From the NCBI RefSeq assembly GCF_900167555.1, contig NZ_FUYF01000011.1, positions 16,483 through 80,482 of the forward strand: a DNA stretch of 64,000 bases, written 5' to 3'. Each line of letters starts with the position of its first letter. The first letter of the stretch is position 1. The notes under the pieces were generated by a model. It was not told where the DNA came from. It saw only the letters and a program-made list of their open reading frames with translations, and searched no databases. The DNA comes from Gemmiger formicilis. GTDB taxonomy: Bacteria; Bacillota; Clostridia; Oscillospirales; Ruminococcaceae. A program made the translations under genes and the position numbers. This document shows positions 24,352-35,850 of this stretch, piece after piece.

Positions 24352-24419
24352 GCCGCCGCGCCCATTTACCGTAAAAAAGATGTAAATTCTCAAAAAGCTG
24401 TTCCCATTTGCACGATTTA

Positions 24420-25679: not shown

Positions 25680-27125
25680 TTACGAATTTTTCGGGAACGT
25701 CACCCGTATGGTCGTCCCGGTGCCGACCTGGCTTTGCAGGTCAATTTTTGCGTCGTGCAGCAGGGCAATGTGCTTGACGATGGCAAGCCCTAAGCCCGTG
25801 CCGCCCGTGGCCTTGGAGCGGCTCTTGTCCACGCGGTAGAACCGCTCAAACACGCGGGTCTGGCTGTCCTGCGGGATGCCGATGCCGTTGTCCTCGACCT
25901 CAAAATACGGGCAGCCGTCGCCGCCTACACCGCAGCGCAGCTCCACATGGCCGCCCGGGCGGTTGTAGCGGATGGCATTGTCGCACAAATTCTGCGTCAG
26001 TTCGCTCAATTGGTCGCGGCTGCCGCGCACGGTGGCGGGTCTGGCATCGTATTGCAGCGTCACGTAGGCCCGGCGGGCGTTGACCGTCATGTTCTGGGCC
26101 GTCTCCTTGACCAGCGCGGCCAGATCCACAGGGGCCATCTCGGTCACAGGCTCGCGGCTGTGGCTGGCCTGGGTGCTGTCCAGCTCACTCAATTGCAGAA
26201 TGTCGCTGACCAGCGCGATCATCCGCTGAGCCTCCTTGTGGATGCGCGTGGCGAAGGTCGGCACGTCGGCGGGCTTTGCCATGCCGGTCTCGATCAGCTC
26301 GGCATAGCCGGAAATGCTCGTCAGCGGGGTTTTCAGCTCGTGGCTGACGTTGGCCGTGAACTCGCGGCGCATCGTCTCGTTGTCCTCGCGCAGCTTGCGG
26401 TCCGTCTGGATCGTCCGCGCCAGCGGGATCAATTCTTCATAGGGCACATCGGCCTCGATCGTGTCCAGATGCTCGGCCAGATGGTTGATGGGCTGCACCA
26501 TGCGGCGGGTCAGCCACCAGCTGAACAGCGTGGCAGCGAGCAAAATCAGCACGACTGCGCCGCACAGCAGCGGCAGGGTGTCGGTGCTCAGGCCCCAGAT
26601 GTTCGCGACGTCCTCGCCCACGCGCAGCACCTGTGCGCCCTCCGGCAGGTCGATGCGCACGGCATAGTAGTGCGTCTCCAGCTGCAGCGTCTCGCTCTCG
26701 CGGGTGATGCACGCGGAACCGTTCGCCATTGCCTGTTGAAATTCCGGGCGGTCGGCGTGATTGGGCAGGTCGGTCTGGGCCGCGTAGATGTCGCCGTTTA
26801 CGTCCACGATGTAGGAACCGAGCTTCGTGTCGTACAGCACCGTGCCGTCTGTGTCGATGAGGGTGATGCGCAGGGGGCGGTCCTCAGGCAGCAGGTTCAG
26901 CAGCGTGGTAGCGTTGTGGGTGTCCTGCGCCTCGTAGGCAGCGGCGTAGCCATGGCAGATCTGCATCAGGTAATTGTCAATGCGTTCTGCGTAGCTGCGC
27001 TGAAAAAGCACCGTCGCCGCCGCCAGCACGGCCAGCGCGCAGAGCAGCCCGGTCAGGATCAGGCCGCGCCGGTAGCGGCGGGTCATGCTGAGGGGCTGGC
27101 GCGTGCGGCGTTCGTCGTCAGTCAT
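25680..27125 (-). CDS. phoR: Sensor histidine kinase, PhoR-like
   Basis: This is a 481-residue membrane kinase. Transmembrane helices are at about 21-42 and 184-206, with an extracytoplasmic sensor between them. A HAMP-like linker follows (about 205-255). The phosphorylated histidine is H262 in FTANVSHELKTPLTS. The C-terminal ATPase carries the N box NLCDNAIRYN, G1 VEDNGIGIP and G2 GGTGLGLAIVKHI. It overlaps the response-regulator gene by 8 nt. Position beside phosphate transport genes with Pho boxes makes a phosphate-starvation role likely, but the signal is inferred. Confidence 0.88.
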   Translation of the reverse strand: MTDDERRTRQPLSMTRRYRRGLILTGLLCALAVLAAATVLFQRSYAERIDNYLMQICHGYAAAYEAQDTHNATTLLNLLPEDRPLRITLIDTDGTVLYDTKLGSYIVDVNGDIYAAQTDLPNHADRPEFQQAMANGSACITRESETLQLETHYYAVRIDLPEGAQVLRVGEDVANIWGLSTDTLPLLCGAVVLILLAATLFSWWLTRRMVQPINHLAEHLDTIEADVPYEELIPLARTIQTDRKLREDNETMRREFTANVSHELKTPLTSISGYAELIETGMAKPADVPTFATRIHKEAQRMIALVSDILQLSELDSTQASHSREPVTEMAPVDLAALVKETAQNMTVNARRAYVTLQYDARPATVRGSRDQLSELTQNLCDNAIRYNRPGGHVELRCGVGGDGCPYFEVEDNGIGIPQDSQTRVFERFYRVDKSRSKATGGTGLGLAIVKHIALLHDAKIDLQSQVGTGTTIRVTFPKNS

Positions 27126-27810
27126 CGCTGCCCTCCGTGCTCAGCTTGTAGCCCACCTTGCGCACGGTGCGGATGGCCTCGCCCGCCGCGCCGAGCTTCT
27201 GGCGCAGCGTGCGGACGTGCATGTCGATGGTGCGGGATTCCAGTAAATCGTCGGTGTCCCAGACGTCCTTCATGATGCGCTCGCGGGCCAGGACCTCCTC
27301 CGGGTGCTCCAAAAACAGATGCAGCAGCGCGTATTCCTTGAAGGTCAGCTCCACGGGCACGCCGCCCACCCGGACGGTGCGGGACACGTCGTCCAGCACG
27401 ATGTCCCCGAAGCGCAGCGTGGACGCGGCGGGCGCGGGGACGGCAGCGGCGGCGCGGCGCAGCACGGCCCGCACGCGGGAGATGAACTCCATGATGCCGA
27501 ACGGCTTGCACAGGTAGTCGTCCGCGCCGTGGTCCAGCCCCTTGACGACGTCGATCTCGCTGGTTTTGGCCGTGACCATGATGACCGGCGTTGCGGCGCA
27601 GGCCGGGTCGGCGCGCAGCTTGGCCAAAATCTGGTAGCCGTCCTCGTCGGGCAGCATGACGTCCAGAATGACGAGGTCGGGCCGCCCGCTGCGCAGCGCC
27701 GCCCAGAAGCTGGCTGCGTCCTCGCAGCCCGTGGTCTCGTACCCGTTGGATTGCAAAGCGTATTGCTCCAGCTCACGGATGCTGGAGTCGTCCTCAACGA
27801 TGTAGATCAT
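27118..27810 (-). CDS. phoB: OmpR/PhoB-family response regulator
   Basis: This is a 230-residue DNA-binding regulator. The receiver domain (1-120) has acidic pocket D7-D8, phosphoacceptor D50 in VILDVMLPDEDG, and lysine in the CKPF motif. The winged helix (about 130-228) ends with SRTIDMHVRTLRQKLG and VRKVGYKL, the recognition and wing elements of OmpR-type proteins. The start follows GAGGTATTTTCT. It is the likely binder of the 11-nt-spaced TTTACA repeats upstream of the Na/Pi cotransporter gene and pstS. The long upstream in-frame extension crosses an AT repeat and was dropped. Confidence 0.88.
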   Translation of the reverse strand: MIYIVEDDSSIRELEQYALQSNGYETTGCEDAASFWAALRSGRPDLVILDVMLPDEDGYQILAKLRADPACAATPVIMVTAKTSEIDVVKGLDHGADDYLCKPFGIMEFISRVRAVLRRAAAAVPAPAASTLRFGDIVLDDVSRTVRVGGVPVELTFKEYALLHLFLEHPEEVLARERIMKDVWDTDDLLESRTIDMHVRTLRQKLGAAGEAIRTVRKVGYKLSTEGSDD

Positions 27811-27834
27811 AGAAAATACCTCATGTGTGTGGTT

Positions 27835-27989
27835 TGCAAATAATAAATAATAAATAAAAAATAATAAAGAAGGATGCGCGCCGCGCGCGCAAATTGAAAA
27901 AGCGCTGCGAACTTCCCGAAACACACCGTTCCGAGCGGTGCGCAGCGCCGCAAAATATTTATTATTTATTATTTCTTATTTATTCTTTC
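27835..27989. repeat. AT-bordered inverted-repeat element, copy 2
   Basis: GCAAATAATAAATAATAAATA begins the left arm in part, and TTATTTATTA-type units form the right. The interior holds the 19-nt core (27933-27951) in reverse orientation to copy 1. It lies between phoB and the Na/Pi cotransporter gene, whose last codons it overlaps. Confidence 0.6.
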
Positions 27990-29773
27990 GAATCTGCGGG
28001 AGCAGATTCGGTGTACGCCTCCGGCGGGAAGGTGTAGCGGCCACGGTATTTCTCGTAGCGGCGCTCAAACTTCACGCTGCCGCCGTGCTTGACGTTGTTC
28101 AGGTACTCGTGGGTGTCGAACTTGTCCGCCGCGACCTCGATCATGGCCACCGCAATGTTCGAGCAATGGTCGGCGATGCGCTCGTAGTTTGTCAGCAAAT
28201 CGTCCAGCACAAAGCCGTACTCGATCGTGCAGACACCGGCCTGCAGACGTGCGATGTGGCGGGTCTTGACCTCGCGCACCAGGCCGTCCACGACCTGCTC
28301 CAGCGGCTCGATCTTGCCGGCGGCGTAGGTGTCGCACTTCTGGAACGCATCCACCGTGCGGTTGACGATGTCCTGCACGGCGGCCTCCAGAACCGACAGA
28401 TCGTTGAGCGCTTCTTCGCTGAATTTGATGTCCTTGTCGCGGATCTCCTGCGCCGTTTTGATAATGTTCACGGCGTGGTCGGAGACGCGCTCAAAGTCGC
28501 CGATGGTGTGCAGCAGCGTGTTGACGGAGCGGTTATCCTCCACGGACAGATGCTTGGCGCTCAATTTGACAAGGTAGGTGCCCAGCACGTCCTCATAGTG
28601 GTCAACGGCGTCCTCCTTGCGGATGACCTCGTCGGCGATGGCGTCATTCCAGACGCGGGTGGTGGACATGGCCTGCAAGAGCGCGGTGCGGCAGATCTCG
28701 GCCATATCGCCGCCGGTCAGCATGGCGCGGCCCACGGCCACGGACGGCGTAGTCAGCAGACGCTCGTCCAGCAGGGTGTTCTCCTGCTTCGTGTCGGACG
28801 GGGAGTCTGGCACGGTCAAAATGGCCAGTTTTTCCAGCAGGCGGTTGAACGGCAGCAGAATAGCTGTCGTTACTATGTTAAAAATTGTGTGTACGATGGC
28901 GATGCCGAAGGTGTTGGCCGTCTCGTTGAAGAAGGCAAAACTGATCAGCGCGTTCAGTCCGTAGAACCCGCACAGGAAGAGGATCGTGCCGATAACGTTA
29001 AAATAGAGATGGACGAAGGCGGTGCGCTTTGCGTTCTTGTTTGCACCCGCCGAGGAGATCAGCGCCGTGACGGTGGTGCCGATGTTCTGGCCCATGATGA
29101 TGGGCACGGCAGCGGAGTAGGTGACCGCGCCGGTGCTGGTCAGGGCCTGCAGGATACCGACGGACGCCGACGAGGACTGCAAAACCGCCGTCAGCACCGC
29201 GCCCGCGATGACGCCGAGGATCGGGTTTTTGAAGCTGAGGAACAGATCCATGAACCACGGCTCGTCGGCCAGCGGGGACATGGCATGGGACATCGTGTTC
29301 ATGCCGGCCATCAAAATAGAGAAGCCCAGCAGGATTTTACCGACGCCGCGCTTGCGGTCCTTGCCGATCATATACATCCAGATGCCGATAAAGCCGAGGA
29401 TCGGGCTCCACGCGGTAGGGTTCATCATTTGGGTGAGGAAGCTGTCGCCTTCCAGACCGGACAGCGAGAGCAGCCAGCCGGTGACAGTTGTACCGACGTT
29501 TGCGCCCATAATGACGCTGATGGCCTGATGCAGCTCCATCAGGCCGGAGTTGACGAAGCCGACGGCCATAACGGTGGTGGCACCGCTGGACTGAATGACG
29601 GCAGTGACGGCCATGCCGAGCAGCAAACCGCGGATGGGGCTGCTGGTCATGGTGGACAGAATGCCCTGCAGCTTACTGCCGGCGGTCTGTTCCAGAGCTT
29701 TCCCCATCAGGTCCATGCCATACAGGAACATGGCAATGCCGCCCATCAAGGTGAACACATTAAAAATGGTCAT
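27980..29773 (-). CDS. Na/Pi cotransporter with C-terminal PhoU domain
   Basis: This is a 597-residue phosphate importer of the NptA/PNaS family. Residues 1-310 hold two repeated membrane modules, each with a QSS motif (VIQSSGATTVMAVG and VLQSSSASVGI) that binds sodium and phosphate. Residues about 345-545 are a PhoU-like helical domain (FERVSDHAVNI, ERIADHCSNIAV), thought to gate uptake. The promoter upstream has three TTTACA-type repeats at 11-nt spacing, so it belongs to the phosphate regulon. Expression from the minus strand together with phoBR is possible, but the AT element separates them. Confidence 0.93.
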   Translation of the reverse strand: MTIFNVFTLMGGIAMFLYGMDLMGKALEQTAGSKLQGILSTMTSSPIRGLLLGMAVTAVIQSSGATTVMAVGFVNSGLMELHQAISVIMGANVGTTVTGWLLSLSGLEGDSFLTQMMNPTAWSPILGFIGIWMYMIGKDRKRGVGKILLGFSILMAGMNTMSHAMSPLADEPWFMDLFLSFKNPILGVIAGAVLTAVLQSSSASVGILQALTSTGAVTYSAAVPIIMGQNIGTTVTALISSAGANKNAKRTAFVHLYFNVIGTILFLCGFYGLNALISFAFFNETANTFGIAIVHTIFNIVTTAILLPFNRLLEKLAILTVPDSPSDTKQENTLLDERLLTTPSVAVGRAMLTGGDMAEICRTALLQAMSTTRVWNDAIADEVIRKEDAVDHYEDVLGTYLVKLSAKHLSVEDNRSVNTLLHTIGDFERVSDHAVNIIKTAQEIRDKDIKFSEEALNDLSVLEAAVQDIVNRTVDAFQKCDTYAAGKIEPLEQVVDGLVREVKTRHIARLQAGVCTIEYGFVLDDLLTNYERIADHCSNIAVAMIEVAADKFDTHEYLNNVKHGGSVKFERRYEKYRGRYTFPPEAYTESAPADSKE

Positions 29774-29824: not shown

Positions 29825-29890
29825 ATTATAATGTATGCGCCGCAGGTACACCACCACGGGAAGGTAAATGTTGTGTAAAATTTGTGTAAA
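29825..29890 (-). promoter_or_regulatory. Pho box and promoter of the Na/Pi cotransporter gene
   Basis: On the minus strand TTTACA, TTTACA and TTTACC (plus-strand 29885-29890, 29874-29879, 29863-29868) are spaced exactly 11 nt, the PhoB/PhoP-type direct repeat. TATAAT (29825-29830) lies 32 nt past the last repeat, the same distance as at pstS. No -35 consensus is present, as expected for an activated promoter. Confidence 0.8.
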
Positions 29891-30410: not shown

Positions 30411-30469
30411 CCACTCCTAACTCCTCTCTCCTAACTCCACCCCTCTCCCTTTCCCAAAACTTTACAAAC

Positions 30470-30566
30470 TTTACACGCGCTACACAAAACCTGCCCCCTC
30501 TTTGCAAAACCTTTACCGCGATTGTACAGTACTATGGTCGAAACCGGCGCAAAACCGCGGTACAAT
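30470..30566 (+). promoter_or_regulatory. Pho boxes and promoter of the pst genes
   Basis: TTTGCA (30501), TTTACC (30512) and TGTACA (30523) are spaced 11 nt. A further pair TTTACA (30470) and TACACA (30481) lies upstream with the same period. TACAAT (30561-30566) is 32 nt past the last repeat, matching the geometry of the Na/Pi cotransporter promoter. The pstS start codon lies 77 nt further. Confidence 0.75.
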
Positions 30567-30643: not shown

Positions 30644-31579
30644 ATGAAACGTACTTCTGCTATCGCTGCCGTTACCGCTGCTGCGCTGGCTCTGAGCCTG
30701 GCTGCCTGCGGCTCTGCCGATTCCGCCGCTGCTTCCTCTGCCCCTGCAGAGGGCACCGCCGCTTCCACCGAGGCTGCCCCTGCCGGTGACTTCGACGCCG
30801 ACCAGGACATCACGGTCATCTCCCGTGAGGACGGCTCCGGCACCCGCGGCGCCTTCATCGAGCTGACCGGTGTCGAGGAGAAGAACGCCGACGGCAAGAA
30901 GGTCGATAACACCACCGAGGCCGCCGCCATCCAGTCCAGCACCAACGGCGTCATGACCGCCGTCGCCAACGATGAGACCGCTATCGGTTACATCAGCCTC
31001 GGCTCTCTGAGCAATGACGTCAAGGCTGTCACCGTCGGCGGCGTCGAGGCCTCCGCTGAGACCGTCAAGGACGGCAGCTACGTTCTGTCCCGTCCGTTCA
31101 ACATCGTCACCAACGGCGACGCGACGGACCCCGTGGCCGTCGATTTCATCGCCTATGTCTTGAGCAAGGACGGCCAGGCCATCGCTACCGACAACGGCTA
31201 CATCGGTGAGGACGGCGCGGACTTTACCTCCGCCCAGCCCGAGGGCAAGATCGTCGTCGGCGGTTCTTCCTCCGTCTCTCCGCTGATGGAGAAGCTGATC
31301 GAGGCTTACAAGACCGTCAACCCCAACGCCGAGCTGGAGCTCCAGACCACCGATTCCACCACCGGCGTCTCCGGTGCGCTGGAGGGCACCTACACCATCG
31401 GCATGGCCAGCCGTGAGCTGAAGGACTCCGAGGTCGAGGGCGGTGCCAAGGCTACCGTCCTGGCACTGGATGGCATCGCCGTCGTCGTCAACCCCGGCAA
31501 CACCACCGACGACCTGACCGTTGACCAGATCAAGGGCATCTACACCGGCGAGCTGACCACCTGGGCGGATGTGCAGTAA
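30644..31579 (+). CDS. pstS: Phosphate-binding lipoprotein PstS, circularly permuted
   Basis: This is a 311-residue lipoprotein with lipobox LSLAAC (C22) and an Ala/Ser linker to about residue 50. It captures phosphate for the PstCAB transporter. Segment order is unusual. Residues 55-187 match the second half of ordinary PstS: DITVISREDGSGTRGAF, AIGYISLGSLSNDVKAV, YVLSRPF, and the near-terminal FIAYVLSKDGQAI. Residues 201-311 match the first half: GKIVVGGSSSVSPLMEKL, EGTYTIGMASRELKDSE, ALDGIAVVVNP, DQIKGIYTGELTTWADV. It ends exactly where the other half would normally begin. Both halves appear complete, so this looks like circular permutation, not truncation. Confidence 0.9.
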   Translation: MKRTSAIAAVTAAALALSLAACGSADSAAASSAPAEGTAASTEAAPAGDFDADQDITVISREDGSGTRGAFIELTGVEEKNADGKKVDNTTEAAAIQSSTNGVMTAVANDETAIGYISLGSLSNDVKAVTVGGVEASAETVKDGSYVLSRPFNIVTNGDATDPVAVDFIAYVLSKDGQAIATDNGYIGEDGADFTSAQPEGKIVVGGSSSVSPLMEKLIEAYKTVNPNAELELQTTDSTTGVSGALEGTYTIGMASRELKDSEVEGGAKATVLALDGIAVVVNPGNTTDDLTVDQIKGIYTGELTTWADVQ

Positions 31580-31591
31580 AGTATAGCGGCA

Positions 31592-31680
31592 TCGTAGGGG
31601 CGGGGCATGCCCCGCCCGCAGCGTACCCGTGACCGCGCGGTTATGGGAAGGCTGCGGGCCGGACATGTCCGGCCCCTACA
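31592..31680. repeat. Palindromes between pstS and pstC
   Basis: GTAGGGGCGGGGCATGCCCC and GCGGGCCGGACATGTCCGGCCC hairpins, the second ending in CCCCTAC. They show paired base changes relative to the common GGCCGGGCATGCCCGGCC form. They could limit transcription from the abundant pstS message into pstC. Confidence 0.7.
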
Positions 31681-31708: not shown

Positions 31709-32602
31709 ATGACCTCCAAGCTAAAAGAAGGCGTTATGCAGGGCGTGTTCACTCTCTGCGCCTGTGTGTCCATCCTGGCGGTGGCACTGATCTGCATCTT
31801 CCTGTTTGCCAACGGCGTGCCCACCCTGTTCAAGATCGGCCCGCTCAAGTTCCTGCTGGGCACGACATGGAAGCCCGGCAACGACATCTTCGGCATCCTG
31901 CCGATGATCCTGGGCAGCATCTACGTCACGGCGGGGGCTATCCTCGTCGGCGTGCCCATCGGCCTGCTGACGGCCATCTACATGTCCAAGTTCGCGTCGC
32001 CCCGCATCAATAAGGTCATGCTCCCGGCGGTGCAGCTGCTGGCCGGCATCCCGTCCGTCGTCTACGGCTTCTTCGGCATGATCGTGCTTGTGCCCGCCGT
32101 GCAGGCCATGGTCAAGTCGCCGTTCTTCAAAACCGTGCTCCACGTCAAGAGCGGCAAGGGCATGAGCCTGTTTACCGCTGCCGTGCTGCTGGGCATCATG
32201 ATCCTGCCCACCATCATCACGGTCAGCAAGACGAGCCTCGACGCCGTGCCCGACAGCTACTACGAGGGCAGCCTTGCCCTTGGCGCGACGCATGAGCGCA
32301 GCGTGTTCTACGCCGTGTTGCCCGCCGCAAAATCCGGCGTGCTGTCGGCAGTCATCCTCGGCATTGGCCGCGCCATCGGTGAGACGATGGCTGTCGTCAT
32401 GGTCGCGGGCAACCAGACCTGGATGCCCAAGGGTCTGTTCCAGGGCCTGCGCACGATGACCTCGAACATCGTCATCGAGATGGGCTACGCCGCCGACCTC
32501 CACCGCGAGGCGCTGATCGCCACCGGCGTTGTGCTGTTCGTATTCATCCTGCTTATCAACCTCTGCTTCAGCCTTGTGAAAGGGGGTAAGGACTATGCCT
32601 GA
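31709..32602 (+). CDS. pstC: Phosphate ABC transporter permease PstC
   Basis: This is a 297-residue inner-membrane permease with six hydrophobic segments. The binding-protein-dependent transport loop is in the C-terminal half (SYYEGSLALGATHERSVFYAVLPAAKSG, EAA-like). It forms the channel heterodimer with PstA. AAAGGAG lies 10 nt before the ATG. The 3' end overlaps pstA by 8 nt, so the two are translationally coupled. Confidence 0.93.
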   Translation: MTSKLKEGVMQGVFTLCACVSILAVALICIFLFANGVPTLFKIGPLKFLLGTTWKPGNDIFGILPMILGSIYVTAGAILVGVPIGLLTAIYMSKFASPRINKVMLPAVQLLAGIPSVVYGFFGMIVLVPAVQAMVKSPFFKTVLHVKSGKGMSLFTAAVLLGIMILPTIITVSKTSLDAVPDSYYEGSLALGATHERSVFYAVLPAAKSGVLSAVILGIGRAIGETMAVVMVAGNQTWMPKGLFQGLRTMTSNIVIEMGYAADLHREALIATGVVLFVFILLINLCFSLVKGGKDYA

Positions 32603-33503
32603 GATCGCCGCAACGCAAACAGCCGCCGATATGACCTACGCAAAACCGCATGCGTTCCTGCCCACCGGCGGCAGCAACCGCCGCGCCGCCCGTATGCAGG
32701 CCGCCGCGCTGCGCTGGCTTGTGCGCATGGCCGCCCTGCTGACCGCCGCGGTGCTGGTCTTCCTCATCGGCTACATTCTGGTCATGGGCATCCCCAATTT
32801 GAAGCCCGAGCTGTTCGCCTGGGAGTATAACTCCGAGAACGTCTCGCTGACGCCCGCGCTCATCAACACGGTGCTGATGACGGCCTTCTCGCTGGCGATC
32901 TCGACGCCGCTGGGCATCTTTGCGGCCATCTGGCTGGTCGAGTACGCACACCGCGGCAGCAAGCTGGTCAAGGTCGTGCGCGTCACCACCGAGACGCTGC
33001 AGGGCATCCCGTCCATCGTCTACGGCCTGTTCGGTATGCTGTTCTTCGTTACCAAGCTGCACTGGGGCTATTCGATGATCGCCGGTGCGTTCACGCTGGC
33101 CATCATGGTTCTGCCCGTCATCATGCGCACGACGGAGGAGGCGCTGATCGCAGTGCCCGACTCCTACCGCGAGGGCAGCTTTGGTCTGGGCGCGGGCAAG
33201 CTGCGCACGGTGTTCACGATCGTGCTGCCGTCCGCCATGCCCGGCATTTTGTCCGGCGTCATTCTGGCCACGGGCCGCATCGTCGGCGAGACCGCCGCGC
33301 TGATCTATACCGCAAGCTCTGTGGCAAAGATCCCGTCCAGCGTGTTCAGCTCCACCCGCACCCTGGCCGTACACATGTACCTGCTCTCCAACGAGGGCCT
33401 GTACATCGGCCAGACCTACGGCACGGCAGTGGTCCTGCTGGTGCTGGTGCTGGTCATCAACGGCCTGTCCGGGCTGGTAGCCGGGAAACTGGCAAAACGG
33501 TAA
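32595..33503 (+). CDS. pstA: Phosphate ABC transporter permease PstA
   Basis: This is a 302-residue permease, partner of PstC. An unusually long cytoplasmic N-terminus of about 40 residues precedes the first helix. The EAA-type loop is SYREGSFGLGAGKLRTVFTIVLPSAMPG. Six membrane segments are visible. The gene is followed by a 655-nt repeat-rich gap before pstB, which is odd because pstA and pstB are normally adjacent. Confidence 0.93.
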   Translation: MPEIAATQTAADMTYAKPHAFLPTGGSNRRAARMQAAALRWLVRMAALLTAAVLVFLIGYILVMGIPNLKPELFAWEYNSENVSLTPALINTVLMTAFSLAISTPLGIFAAIWLVEYAHRGSKLVKVVRVTTETLQGIPSIVYGLFGMLFFVTKLHWGYSMIAGAFTLAIMVLPVIMRTTEEALIAVPDSYREGSFGLGAGKLRTVFTIVLPSAMPGILSGVILATGRIVGETAALIYTASSVAKIPSSVFSSTRTLAVHMYLLSNEGLYIGQTYGTAVVLLVLVLVINGLSGLVAGKLAKR

Positions 33504-34158
33504 AGGACATTGCACCGGTAGGGGCCGGGCGGCAGACACCGGCTGCCCGGAGGGGTCAAGACCCCTCCCTACGATTCGCCGTTCACGGGTGCTATGTAGG
33601 GAGCGGTCTTGACCGCTCCGGGAACCTTCCGTCCGGCAGCCCCTTCCCCGGCGCCGGGCATGCCCGGCCCCTGCCGATACAGGAAACAGCTTTCCGGGTC
33701 GATGAGGAGCATCGACCCCTATACCGTAGGGGCGGATTCCATATCCGCCCGTGGGAGTATGCGGCAGCGCAAACCCCGCGGAGGGGTCAAGACCGCTTGG
33801 CGGCGCACAACGAGCGCCGCCAGCCAGCAAAGCTGGCCCGCTCATGCGGTTGTTTGCCCCGCAGGGGCAAACATTGTTCGCTCCCCGGTTTCGCTACGCT
33901 CAACCGTGGTCCCACGCTTACAACCCCGCACCTCCCTACGATTCGCCGTTCACGGGTGCCATGTAGGGAGCGGTCTTGACCGCTCCGGGAACCTTCCGTC
34001 CGGCAGCCCCTTCCCCGGCGCCGCGCATGTAGGGGCCGCATATATGCGGCCCGCAGGTGTACGGAAAACGGGTGCTCGCGGTCCGGGCCGCGGGCCGGGC
34101 ATGCCCGGCCCCTACCGACACATGGAACAGAGCAGAGATAAAAATGTGAGGTCATTTC
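33504..34158. repeat. Repeat-rich gap between pstA and pstB
   Basis: Two ~95-nt direct copies start near 33547/33566 and 33933, each with the linker GATTCGCCGTTCACGGGTGC, a GTAGGGAGCGGTC/GACCGCTCC hairpin and CCGTCCGGCAGCCCC. The second copy's left palindrome is split by the 137-nt element at 33795-33930. Also present are GGGGCGGATTCCATATCCGCCC, GGCCGCATATATGCGGCC and GGGCCGGGCATGCCCGGCCC hairpins. No gene is supported. Confidence 0.75.
33795..33930 (-). repeat. 137-nt structured repeat, copy 3
   Basis: The reverse complement follows copies 1 and 2. The hairpin GTTTGC/GCAAAC of those copies is replaced by GCCAGC/GCTGGC, a full paired substitution. Removing 33795-33930 restores an uninterrupted GAGGGGTCAAGACC-CCTCCCTACG palindrome identical to the one at about 33551-33574, a natural empty site. 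Confidence 0.75.
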
Positions 34159-34911
34159 ATGAACAAATTTGAAGTGCGCAATATGGACCTGTACTATGGC
34201 AGCTTCCATGCGCTGAAAAATATCAATATCGACATCCCGGAAAAGGAGATCACCGCGTTCATCGGTCCGTCCGGCTGCGGCAAATCCACGTTTTTGAAAA
34301 GCCTGAACCGCATGAACGACCTCGTCGAGGGCTGCCGCATCTCCGGCGGCATCAAGCTCGACGGCGTGGACATCTACAAGGACAAGATGGACGTCAACGT
34401 CCTGCGCAAGCGCGTCGGCATGGTGTTCCAGAAGCCGAACCCCTTCCCGATGTCCATCTATGACAACATCGCCTACGGCCCGCGCACCCACGGCATCCAT
34501 AATAAAGCGCAGCTGGATGAGATCGTGGAAAGATCCCTGCGCGGCGCGGCCATCTGGGACGAGGTCAAGGACCGCCTGAACAAGAGCGCCCTGGGCATGT
34601 CGGGCGGCCAGCAGCAGCGCCTCTGCATTGCGCGCGCCCTGGCCGTTGAGCCCGAGGTCCTGCTGATGGATGAGCCGACGAGCGCTCTGGACCCCATCTC
34701 GACATCCAAGGTCGAGGAGCTGGCCACGGAGCTGAAAGAGAATTACACCATCGTCATGGTCACCCACAACATGCAGCAGGCCGCGCGTATCAGCGATAAG
34801 ACGGCATTTTTCCTGCTGGGCGAGCTGGTGGAGATGGGCCCGACGGAGCGTGTGTTCGCCACGCCCGTGGATAAGCGCACCGAGGATTACATCTCGGGCC
34901 GCTTCGGCTAA
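34159..34911 (+). CDS. pstB: Phosphate ABC transporter ATPase PstB
   Basis: This is a 250-residue ABC ATPase energising PstCA. Walker A is GPSGCGKST near residues 36-44, the Q-loop [11 protein letters not shown], the signature [15 protein letters not shown] and Walker [13 protein letters not shown], followed by the H-loop VTHNMQQA. Length is typical. GTGAGGTCATTTC precedes the ATG. phoU follows after 13 nt with its own AAGGAGG. Confidence 0.96.
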
Positions 34912-34924
34912 GGAGGTACGACAA

Positions 34925-35599
34925 ATGGGTACGAGTGTACGAAAAATGTACGACGCCGAGCTGCTGCAGCTTGACACGATGCTGGCCCGCATGGGCCACG
35001 CCGCCGGCGGCGCGATCGAGAGCGCCATGACCGCCCTGCGCACCGGCGACACCGAGCTGGCCCGCAGCGTTATTGCCCGGGACAGCGAAATCGACTCCGC
35101 CGAGCATGAGATCGAGCACCGCTGCTTAACGCTGTTTCTGCGCCAGCAGCCCGTGGCGGGCGACCTGCGCAAGGTCTCCACGGCGCTGAAGATGGTCACC
35201 GACATTGAGCGCATCGCCGACCAGGCCAGCGACATTGCCGAGATAACGCTCCATCTCCACCCGGACGGCGCGCGCACCGTCGGCGTGCTGGACGACCTGT
35301 ACGCGATGGGCGACATTGCCCTGCACATGGTCAAGGACGCCATTGCCGCCTACGTGCAGGTGGATCTGTCCACCGCCGCGCAGGTCATTGCCCGCGACGA
35401 CGACTGCGACGCGATGTTCAGCCGCATTTCCAAGGAAATTGCGGCCTACATCGCCGCCCACCCCAGCGATGCCGAGACGGCGCTGGACTTATTTATGATC
35501 GATAAGTACCTTGAGCGCCTGGGCGACCACGCCGTGAACATTGCGGAATGGGTCGAGTTCCTCAAGACCGGCGTCCACAAATCCCGCAAGATCGTGTAA
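34925..35599 (+). CDS. phoU: Phosphate signalling protein PhoU
   Basis: This is a 224-residue all-helical protein made of two PhoU repeats, each with an E/DxxxD metal-binding motif (TDIERIADQASDIAE and YLERLGDHAVNIAEW). It links the Pst transporter to the PhoR kinase and restrains the regulon when phosphate is plentiful. The start at 34925 has AAGGAGG 9 nt upstream; the longer frame overlaps pstB and was rejected. It ends the pst operon before a terminator. Confidence 0.93.
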   Translation: MGTSVRKMYDAELLQLDTMLARMGHAAGGAIESAMTALRTGDTELARSVIARDSEIDSAEHEIEHRCLTLFLRQQPVAGDLRKVSTALKMVTDIERIADQASDIAEITLHLHPDGARTVGVLDDLYAMGDIALHMVKDAIAAYVQVDLSTAAQVIARDDDCDAMFSRISKEIAAYIAAHPSDAETALDLFMIDKYLERLGDHAVNIAEWVEFLKTGVHKSRKIV

Positions 35600-35681: not shown

Positions 35682-35693
35682 CGTGGAGGGAGG

Positions 35694-35850
35694 CTGCCCG
35701 GAGGGGTCAAGACCCCTCCCTACAAGGCACCCGTGAGCGGCAGTTCGTAGGGAGCGGTCTTGACCGCTCCGGGTGCTTTGCGGCAACGTCAGCTCCCTGT
35801 AGGGGCCGCGCGGCGGCAAAAAAGCAGCCGTCCCTTTCCGGAACGGCTGC
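35694..35850. repeat. Palindrome doublet after phoU
   Basis: GGAGGGGTC...CCCTAC and GTAGGGAGCGGTC...GACCGCTCC flank a linker with CACCCGTGAGCGGCAG. A GTAGGGGCCGCGCGGC element and an AGCAGCCGT/ACGGCTGCT hairpin around CCCTTTCCGGA (about 35822-35852) follow; the last could terminate the convergent glycosyltransferase gene. Confidence 0.65.

Follow-up and report, generated by a model that had tools for sequence, protein, structure and literature searches.

The closest described counterpart of the system reported here is the Pst1 phosphate importer of Streptococcus pneumoniae. In the available part of PMC6722419, SP_2084-8 form Pst1 together with PhoU and adjoin PnpR/S (SP_2082/2083); SP_2084 is likewise named pstS in the available parts of PMC8540371 and PMC11075461. 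The accessible passages of PMC4913102 state that pneumococcal Pst1 is induced through PnpRS at low Pi, that initial Pi uptake at 200 uM drops about twofold when pst1-phoU1 is deleted, that encapsulated cells need a working Pst1 or Pst2, and that pstS1 has a Pho box (TTTACACAATCTTTACA) 92 bp upstream. The identification of this pstS1 with SP_2084 was made here by combining those passages of PMC6722419 and PMC4913102. The names conflict: the structure of SP_2084 from strain TIGR4 (4H1X by its PDB title, released 2012-10-17) is called 'pstS 2' in the PDB, and the same system is Pst1/PstS1 in the passages of PMC4913102.

No description of a permuted PstS in print was found in the open-licence literature, although one may exist elsewhere, and '4H1X' was mentioned in no paper of that literature searched. 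Among ABC binding proteins, TpMglB-2 was the only further case of natural circular permutation found there. Permutants of its type (proposed 'Type Ic') occur in treponemes and Gram-positives, according to the available part of PMC4990184.

An earlier note had proposed that a pstS gene in the window, that is, the whole 64-kb stretch of DNA analysed here, carries the two halves of its product in swapped order. We followed up this proposal by profile, structure, genome and tree comparisons.

Half order of the window PstS

The features of the locus are collected in Table 1. Four family profiles (PF12849, TIGR02136, TIGR04505 and TIGR00975) each matched the pstS product in two stretches, and in the best of these matches the start of the profile paired with the end of the protein. 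Both profile halves were present (PF12849/TIGR02136), and the ordinary PstS half order was not found. As written, the protein reached 182.8 bits against TIGR02136 in two stretches and missed the curated cut-off of 206.6, a formal miss that is explained by the swapped order, from which such under-scoring is expected.

Table 1. Features of the pst locus in the window (positions in the window; numbers in the element column are residues of PstS unless stated otherwise).
Element	Position	Strand	Basis
Whole pstS gene (311 aa, permuted order)	30644..31579	+	ORF, rotation test, model, structure match
Signal peptide; lipobox LAAC, Cys22 (codon 30707-30709)	30644..30706	+	sequence
Low-complexity tether, residues 22-51	30707..30796	+	sequence
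PstS C-half in first place, residues 52-188 (ITVISREDGSGTR ... LSKDGQ)	30797..31207	+	profile, PDB and rotation matches
Link from original C-terminus to original N-terminus, residues 189-201 (13 residues), high pLDDT	31208..31246	+	rotation test, model
PstS N-half in last place, residues 202-310 (VVGGSSSVSP ... TTWAD)	31247..31573	+	profile, PDB and rotation matches
pstC permease	31709..32602	+	PF00528; PstC+PstA tree
pstA permease	32595..33503	+	PF00528
pstB ATPase	34159..34911	+	PF00005
phoU, start assumed at ATG 34925 within ORF 34850-35599	34925..35599	+	PF01895, two stretches
Divergent nptA-type Na/Pi cotransporter with PhoU domain	27980..29773	-	PF02690, PF01895
PhoB/PhoR-like pair: response regulator 27118-27924, histidine kinase 25680-27125	25680..27924	-	PF00072, PF00486, PF00512, PF02518
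Four Pho-box-like sites (30450, 30470, 30501, 30512) before pstS	30450..30528	+	2 mismatches each

A profile built from 58 ordinary PstS was used to score every one of the 263 rotations of the mature protein. The protein as written gave two swapped domains of 135.4 and 124.9 bits. When residues 195-311 were put ahead of 49-194, one domain of 266.8 bits was obtained, covering profile positions 2-240 of 240, and the eight best rotations listed, with cut residues 189-196, all tied at this score. With a profile made from 112 permuted relatives, the unrotated protein scored best (378.3 bits, one domain). A chance similarity of the halves to PstS was ruled out by the rise in score on rotation. The earlier note had placed the second PstS half ahead of the first, behind the lipobox, and its coordinates, frame and order were all correct. 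It had also taken both halves to be complete, which agrees with the full profile coverage once they are joined in ordinary order, and the rearranged alignment indeed outscored the one as written.

Fold and phosphate site

A phmmer search of the PDB returned one collinear sequence, 4h1x, which matched window residues 52-309 in a single stretch (E 9.4e-65). Nine other PDB PstS (4gd5, 4q8r, 1twy, 4n13, 4pqj, 4omb, 4exl, 4jwo and 4ecf) matched in two stretches, which stand in swapped order in the two cases whose alignments were inspected (4gd5 and 4q8r). Residues 50-311 were modelled by AlphaFold2 from an alignment of 30 permuted sequences (mean pLDDT 96.6, pTM 0.87). When the predicted model was searched by Foldseek and VIA-align, 4h1x came first by far (TM 0.93; Z 36.0 and rmsd 1.4 over 255 residues at 47-48% identity), and the strands of the model follow the same order in space. 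Ordinary PstS structures aligned with only about half of the model. The second half of the chain of 1twy, 4gd5 and 4q8r fell on model residues 1-141 (1twy_A chain 138-276 on 1-140), and chain 2-117 of 9l8j fell on 148-262. Structure prediction, which the earlier note had named as a check, thus gave a confident model with an end-to-end match to 4H1X; since that entry was released in 2012, the permuted fold is a known structure.

The Pfam matches of the protein were PBP_like_2 and other type II families. R61, S65-G66-T67, G207-S208, S210 and D276-G277 were invariant in 30 of 30 permuted rows (alignment A1). The window protein carries the phosphate-site residues expected of PstS: an Arg, an SGT loop, an N-half Ser and an Asp-Gly pair. 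The Arg, R61, aligns with Arg125 of 4Q8R, which is described as phosphate-contacting in the available part of PMC12421899.

Operon and regulation

The window pstS heads a pstS-pstC-pstA-pstB-phoU operon. Pho boxes were scored with the consensus TTTACA-N5-TTTACA. At 2 mismatches or fewer, 8 sites occur in the 64-kb window against 0.71 expected. Besides the four ahead of pstS, a pair precedes the nptA-like gene (29863-29890, minus strand), one of them perfect. A further strong match was observed at 24370-24386 (minus strand). The sites at these three places perhaps mark a local Pho regulon. With pstSCAB-phoU complete and four sites in front of it, the Pho-box-controlled pst operon described in the earlier note was recovered, and its control would be of the PhoB/PhoR type.

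The same setting was found in relatives. Ahead of distinct permuted pstS genes, 101 of the 111 upstream regions scored held a site that matched the consensus at 10 or more of its 12 positions, compared with 12 of 417 random 200-base stretches of the loci concerned. Of the 141 distinct permuted genes, 134 are followed by PstC-PstA, and 114 show a simple lipobox motif ahead of the C-half, which was not found in the other 27.

Two kinds of repeat were also observed. A palindrome family, mostly GGGCCGGGCATGCCCGGCCC, has 17 matches in the window at up to 3 mismatches to GGGCCGGACATGTCCGGCCC (0.01 expected); one copy lies in the pstS-pstC gap (31656-31675) and 16 lie elsewhere. Direct repeats of 91-99 bases occupy 33541-33662 and 33908-34029 in the pstA-pstB gap and 35692-35782 past phoU.

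Distribution among genomes

In the window's genus, by manual count, a single match across both halves was found in 25 of 35 genomes, the window's own included. The others had a match in pieces (2), the ordinary order (3, confirmed on inspection) or no match at E<=1e-8 (5). The spanning match was also present in two single-contig, 99%-complete genomes of the genus (G004 and G026). Wider samples were tallied manually from the listed matches, at a cut-off that misses distant ordinary PstS: in the class sample at least 59 of 293 genomes (own included) had a spanning match and at least 148 had any match at 1e-10; in the phylum sample at least 13 of 348 (own included) had a stand-alone spanning match, at least 2 more had one inside a double gene, and at least 186 had any match. 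Named carriers among the best 80 of 202 matches include Gemmiger, Dorea, Faecalicatena, Coprococcus, Agathobaculum and Butyricicoccus, and the closest named ones would place the window in Gemmiger. The earlier note had suggested searching relatives for the same half order, and it was found across all three samples, which rules out a recent event in this genome.

Initially 226 loci, picked as matches or as ordinary controls, were parsed. They held 160 permuted, 58 ordinary, 2 double and 1 half ORFs. Nineteen of the permuted genes were included twice from overlapping collections, and the 141 distinct ones are counted throughout. Two permuted pstS ORFs per locus were seen in L083, L113, L149 and L150, adjacent to each other in the last two.

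Permuted pstS genes were also found on two plasmid records labelled complete, from Treponema saccharophilum and Monoglobus pectinilyticus. Both are annotated merely as 'substrate-binding domain-containing protein', and the adjoining pstC, pstA and pstB carry names. This vague annotation fits the permuted order, which makes family profiles split such genes in two and under-score them. The Treponema plasmid, pTS2, holds a complete permuted pst operon (L252, 4923-8941). Its PstS pairs with that of a Treponema MAG (L112, support 87) inside an otherwise clostridial group, and this nesting suggests a transfer. Nine phage records matched as well. Eight of them are unannotated faecal 'Bacteriophage sp.' scaffolds, and five matches are collinear (MT837530, MT837962, MT838145, MT838544 and MT837061); MT837530, the one inspected, is marked UNVERIFIED. 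These scaffolds are probably bacterial contigs filed as phage.

Origin of the permuted order

Trees were built by quick searches with both PstS halves set in one common order. The first trees kept 31 of 161 permuted and 53 of 58 ordinary rows after thinning by identity and length. L167_NC, a long branch, was excluded from the larger PstS analysis and from both PstC+PstA analyses, and the half-only ORF L037 was unused. The permease trees dropped loci without reachable PstC/PstA (200 of 221 PstS ORFs had both), excluded the pneumococcal PstC/PstA, and used 70 and 77 rows.

In the first PstS tree a single clade (SH-aLRT 98.6) took in 29 of 31 permuted rows, including 4h1x; in the larger tree a single clade (SH-aLRT 98), again with 4h1x, took in 31 of the 32 permuted rows outside a group labelled f46. 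In these quick trees the window protein shares the clade with SP_2084/4H1X, and the permuted proteins from Clostridia, pneumococcus and Treponema cluster with one another. In the PstC+PstA tree, 25 permuted-operon rows likewise formed one clade (99.6).

Repeated origins of the permuted order, in the main clade, in f46 and perhaps in L153, are possible but the less likely case. In the free PstS trees, L153 and six rows of f46 form long branches apart from the main permuted clade, f46 lying among the ordinary proteins; the f46 PstC/PstA stand nearest ordinary ones, and f46 holds a tandem triple of its own. Against repeated origins, trees in which all permuted rows were held together scored higher, without rejection: the gain was 39 lnL units over the free tree for PstS with 38 permuted rows (p-AU 0.867), 34.9 log units with 31 rows (p 0.782), and 9.2 units for PstC+PstA with all 29 permuted rows (p-AU 0.606). 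In addition, the same W-containing loop ends the chain in 139 of 141 distinct permuted genes, and the inspected f46 proteins also end in it. A single origin, as judged from these sequence comparisons, is favoured but unproven.

The presence of both half orders in the window's genus would be accounted for by operon-level transfer. Reversion to the ordinary order within the genus was rejected, as PstS and PstCA of L169 group with ordinary ones; of the three ordinary members only L169 was placed, L167 being an unstable long branch and L168 having been thinned out.

Tandem pstS genes exist in living genomes. Double N-C-N-C PstS of 544 and 531 aa, with copies 73-77% identical, occur in G623 (single contig) and G642, which belong to the same genus (L147, 3350-4981, and L148, 3632-5224, both minus strand); pstC-pstA-pstB follow. 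Within a gene of this kind, the inner C-N pair has the permuted order. A triple C-N-C-N-C-N PstS of 990 aa, with units 93-96% identical, was found in the f46 draft genome G690 (L242, 3196-6165, minus strand) and belongs to the f46 group; single relatives of it are L243 and L244. The requirement of a duplication-and-trimming route, an in-frame tandem gene, is thus present in nature. The double genes sit among or near ordinary PstS, which does not support them as direct ancestors of the permuted clade, and the triple gene is likewise no more than a possible ancestor. Most likely the permuted form would have been born once, by in-frame tandem duplication of pstS and later loss of the outer halves, and the operon would since have spread with its own PstC/PstA lineage.

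Lobe topology and lipid anchor

In an ordinary type II binding protein, lobe I is split and holds both chain ends, and lobe II is continuous. Judged by this topology and by the long strands of the predicted model (100-108 and 219-233), TTWADV would be a loop inside lobe II. The window PstS would then have a continuous lobe I and a split lobe II, and the lipid anchor would be shifted from lobe I to lobe II. The earlier note had called the permuted pieces lobes, a reading that probably does not hold, since with the cut inside lobe II pieces and lobes would differ. It was right that the chain ends at TTWADV; its view of TTWADV as the inter-lobe hinge gives way to a probable loop within lobe II.

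The permutation may be adaptive, with anchoring by lobe II suiting surface tethering or altering docking to PstCA, but we consider this rather unlikely. It would agree with the matching clades formed by permuted PstS and their partner PstC/PstA, and the authors of the TpMglB-2 work raised adaptation to tethering for their permutant (in the available part of PMC4990184). In contrast, many members of the class have an ordinary PstS, as do three genomes of the genus, and co-inheritance within an operon requires no adaptation.

Functional state of the window gene

A degenerate or neofunctionalised PstS-like protein that has lost its role in phosphate uptake is quite improbable. The TIGR02136 score under the cut-off is the point in its favour. 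Against it, the operon is intact with Pho-box-like sites in front, and the phosphate-site residues are invariant in the 30 rows. No second pstS was found in the window's genome with the window protein as query (E<=1); the 12 other matches at this cut-off were confined to query residues 1-78, that is, the signal peptide, the tether and a few residues more. Finally, the pneumococcal relative is part of a working Pi importer in the available text of PMC6722419 and PMC4913102, from which it follows that a permuted PstS can serve working Pi import. A wrong joining of the halves in assembly or annotation has a negligible chance, for although the window lies in a draft assembly with 92 contigs, the same order recurs in 141 distinct permuted genes (from loci mostly chosen as matches) and in independent single-contig genomes, the two plasmids labelled complete and the crystal structure 4H1X.

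Taken together, the gene most probably (probability about 0.92) encodes a functional PstS lipoprotein of a distinct, old, circularly permuted subfamily with SP_2084 (4H1X) as its solved representative. The earlier note had seen a working permuted protein and an intact gene, and the 4H1X match, the model, the conserved residues, the operon and the Pho boxes are all consistent with that. In this protein the original ends would be joined by the short link, and the new ends would lie in the loop TTWADV / ITVISRE within lobe II. The mature protein would be secreted and lipidated at Cys22, with about 30 flexible residues tethering the anchor to lobe II. By analogy with its relatives it would bind and transport phosphate, the usual residues closing on the ligand before its transfer to PstC/PstA/PstB of the same operon. 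Being old and widespread, common in gut Clostridia and present in pneumococcus, with a structure deposited in 2012, the permuted form is no novelty of this genome.

A more far-reaching scenario is that the permuted PstS was born once via tandem duplication, carries its anchor on lobe II, is locked to its own PstC/PstA and docks or is restrained differently, with the double and triple genes as snapshots of the route, and that all this is unpublished. We regard this combination as speculative and rather unlikely as a whole. If true, the permuted importer would dock or be restrained unlike the textbook Pst system. Because the form is old and common and double and triple pstS genes are living, the duplication route and the move of the lipid anchor are directly testable.

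Comparison with known systems

The window protein resembles S. pneumoniae SP_2084 (4H1X) in half order, in cut site and in being collinear with it over residues 52-309. Both head pstSCAB-phoU near a PhoB-type system with a Pho box present, as far as the available passages on the pneumococcal operon go. They differ in that the window belongs to Clostridia and SP_2084 to Bacilli, in the sequences of tether and linker, and in that the search of the window's genome yielded a single pstS, whereas the pneumococcus has a second pst system. With ordinary clostridial PstS (4GD5, and 4Q8R of C. perfringens) the protein shares both halves and the aligned phosphate-site Arg. It differs from them in half order, and lobe II would be continuous, lobe I split and the anchor on lobe I in those proteins. 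Like TpMglB-2 (Tp0684), as described in the available part of PMC4990184, the window protein is a natural circular permutant and a tethered ABC binding protein. TpMglB-2 differs in its Type I glucose-binding fold, its other cut site and its extra inter-lobe crossing. The window protein, with type II Pfam matches and a PstS fold, lacks the Type I sugar-binding fold of the Type Ic group, and the permutation of TpMglB-2 is an event separate from that of PstS.
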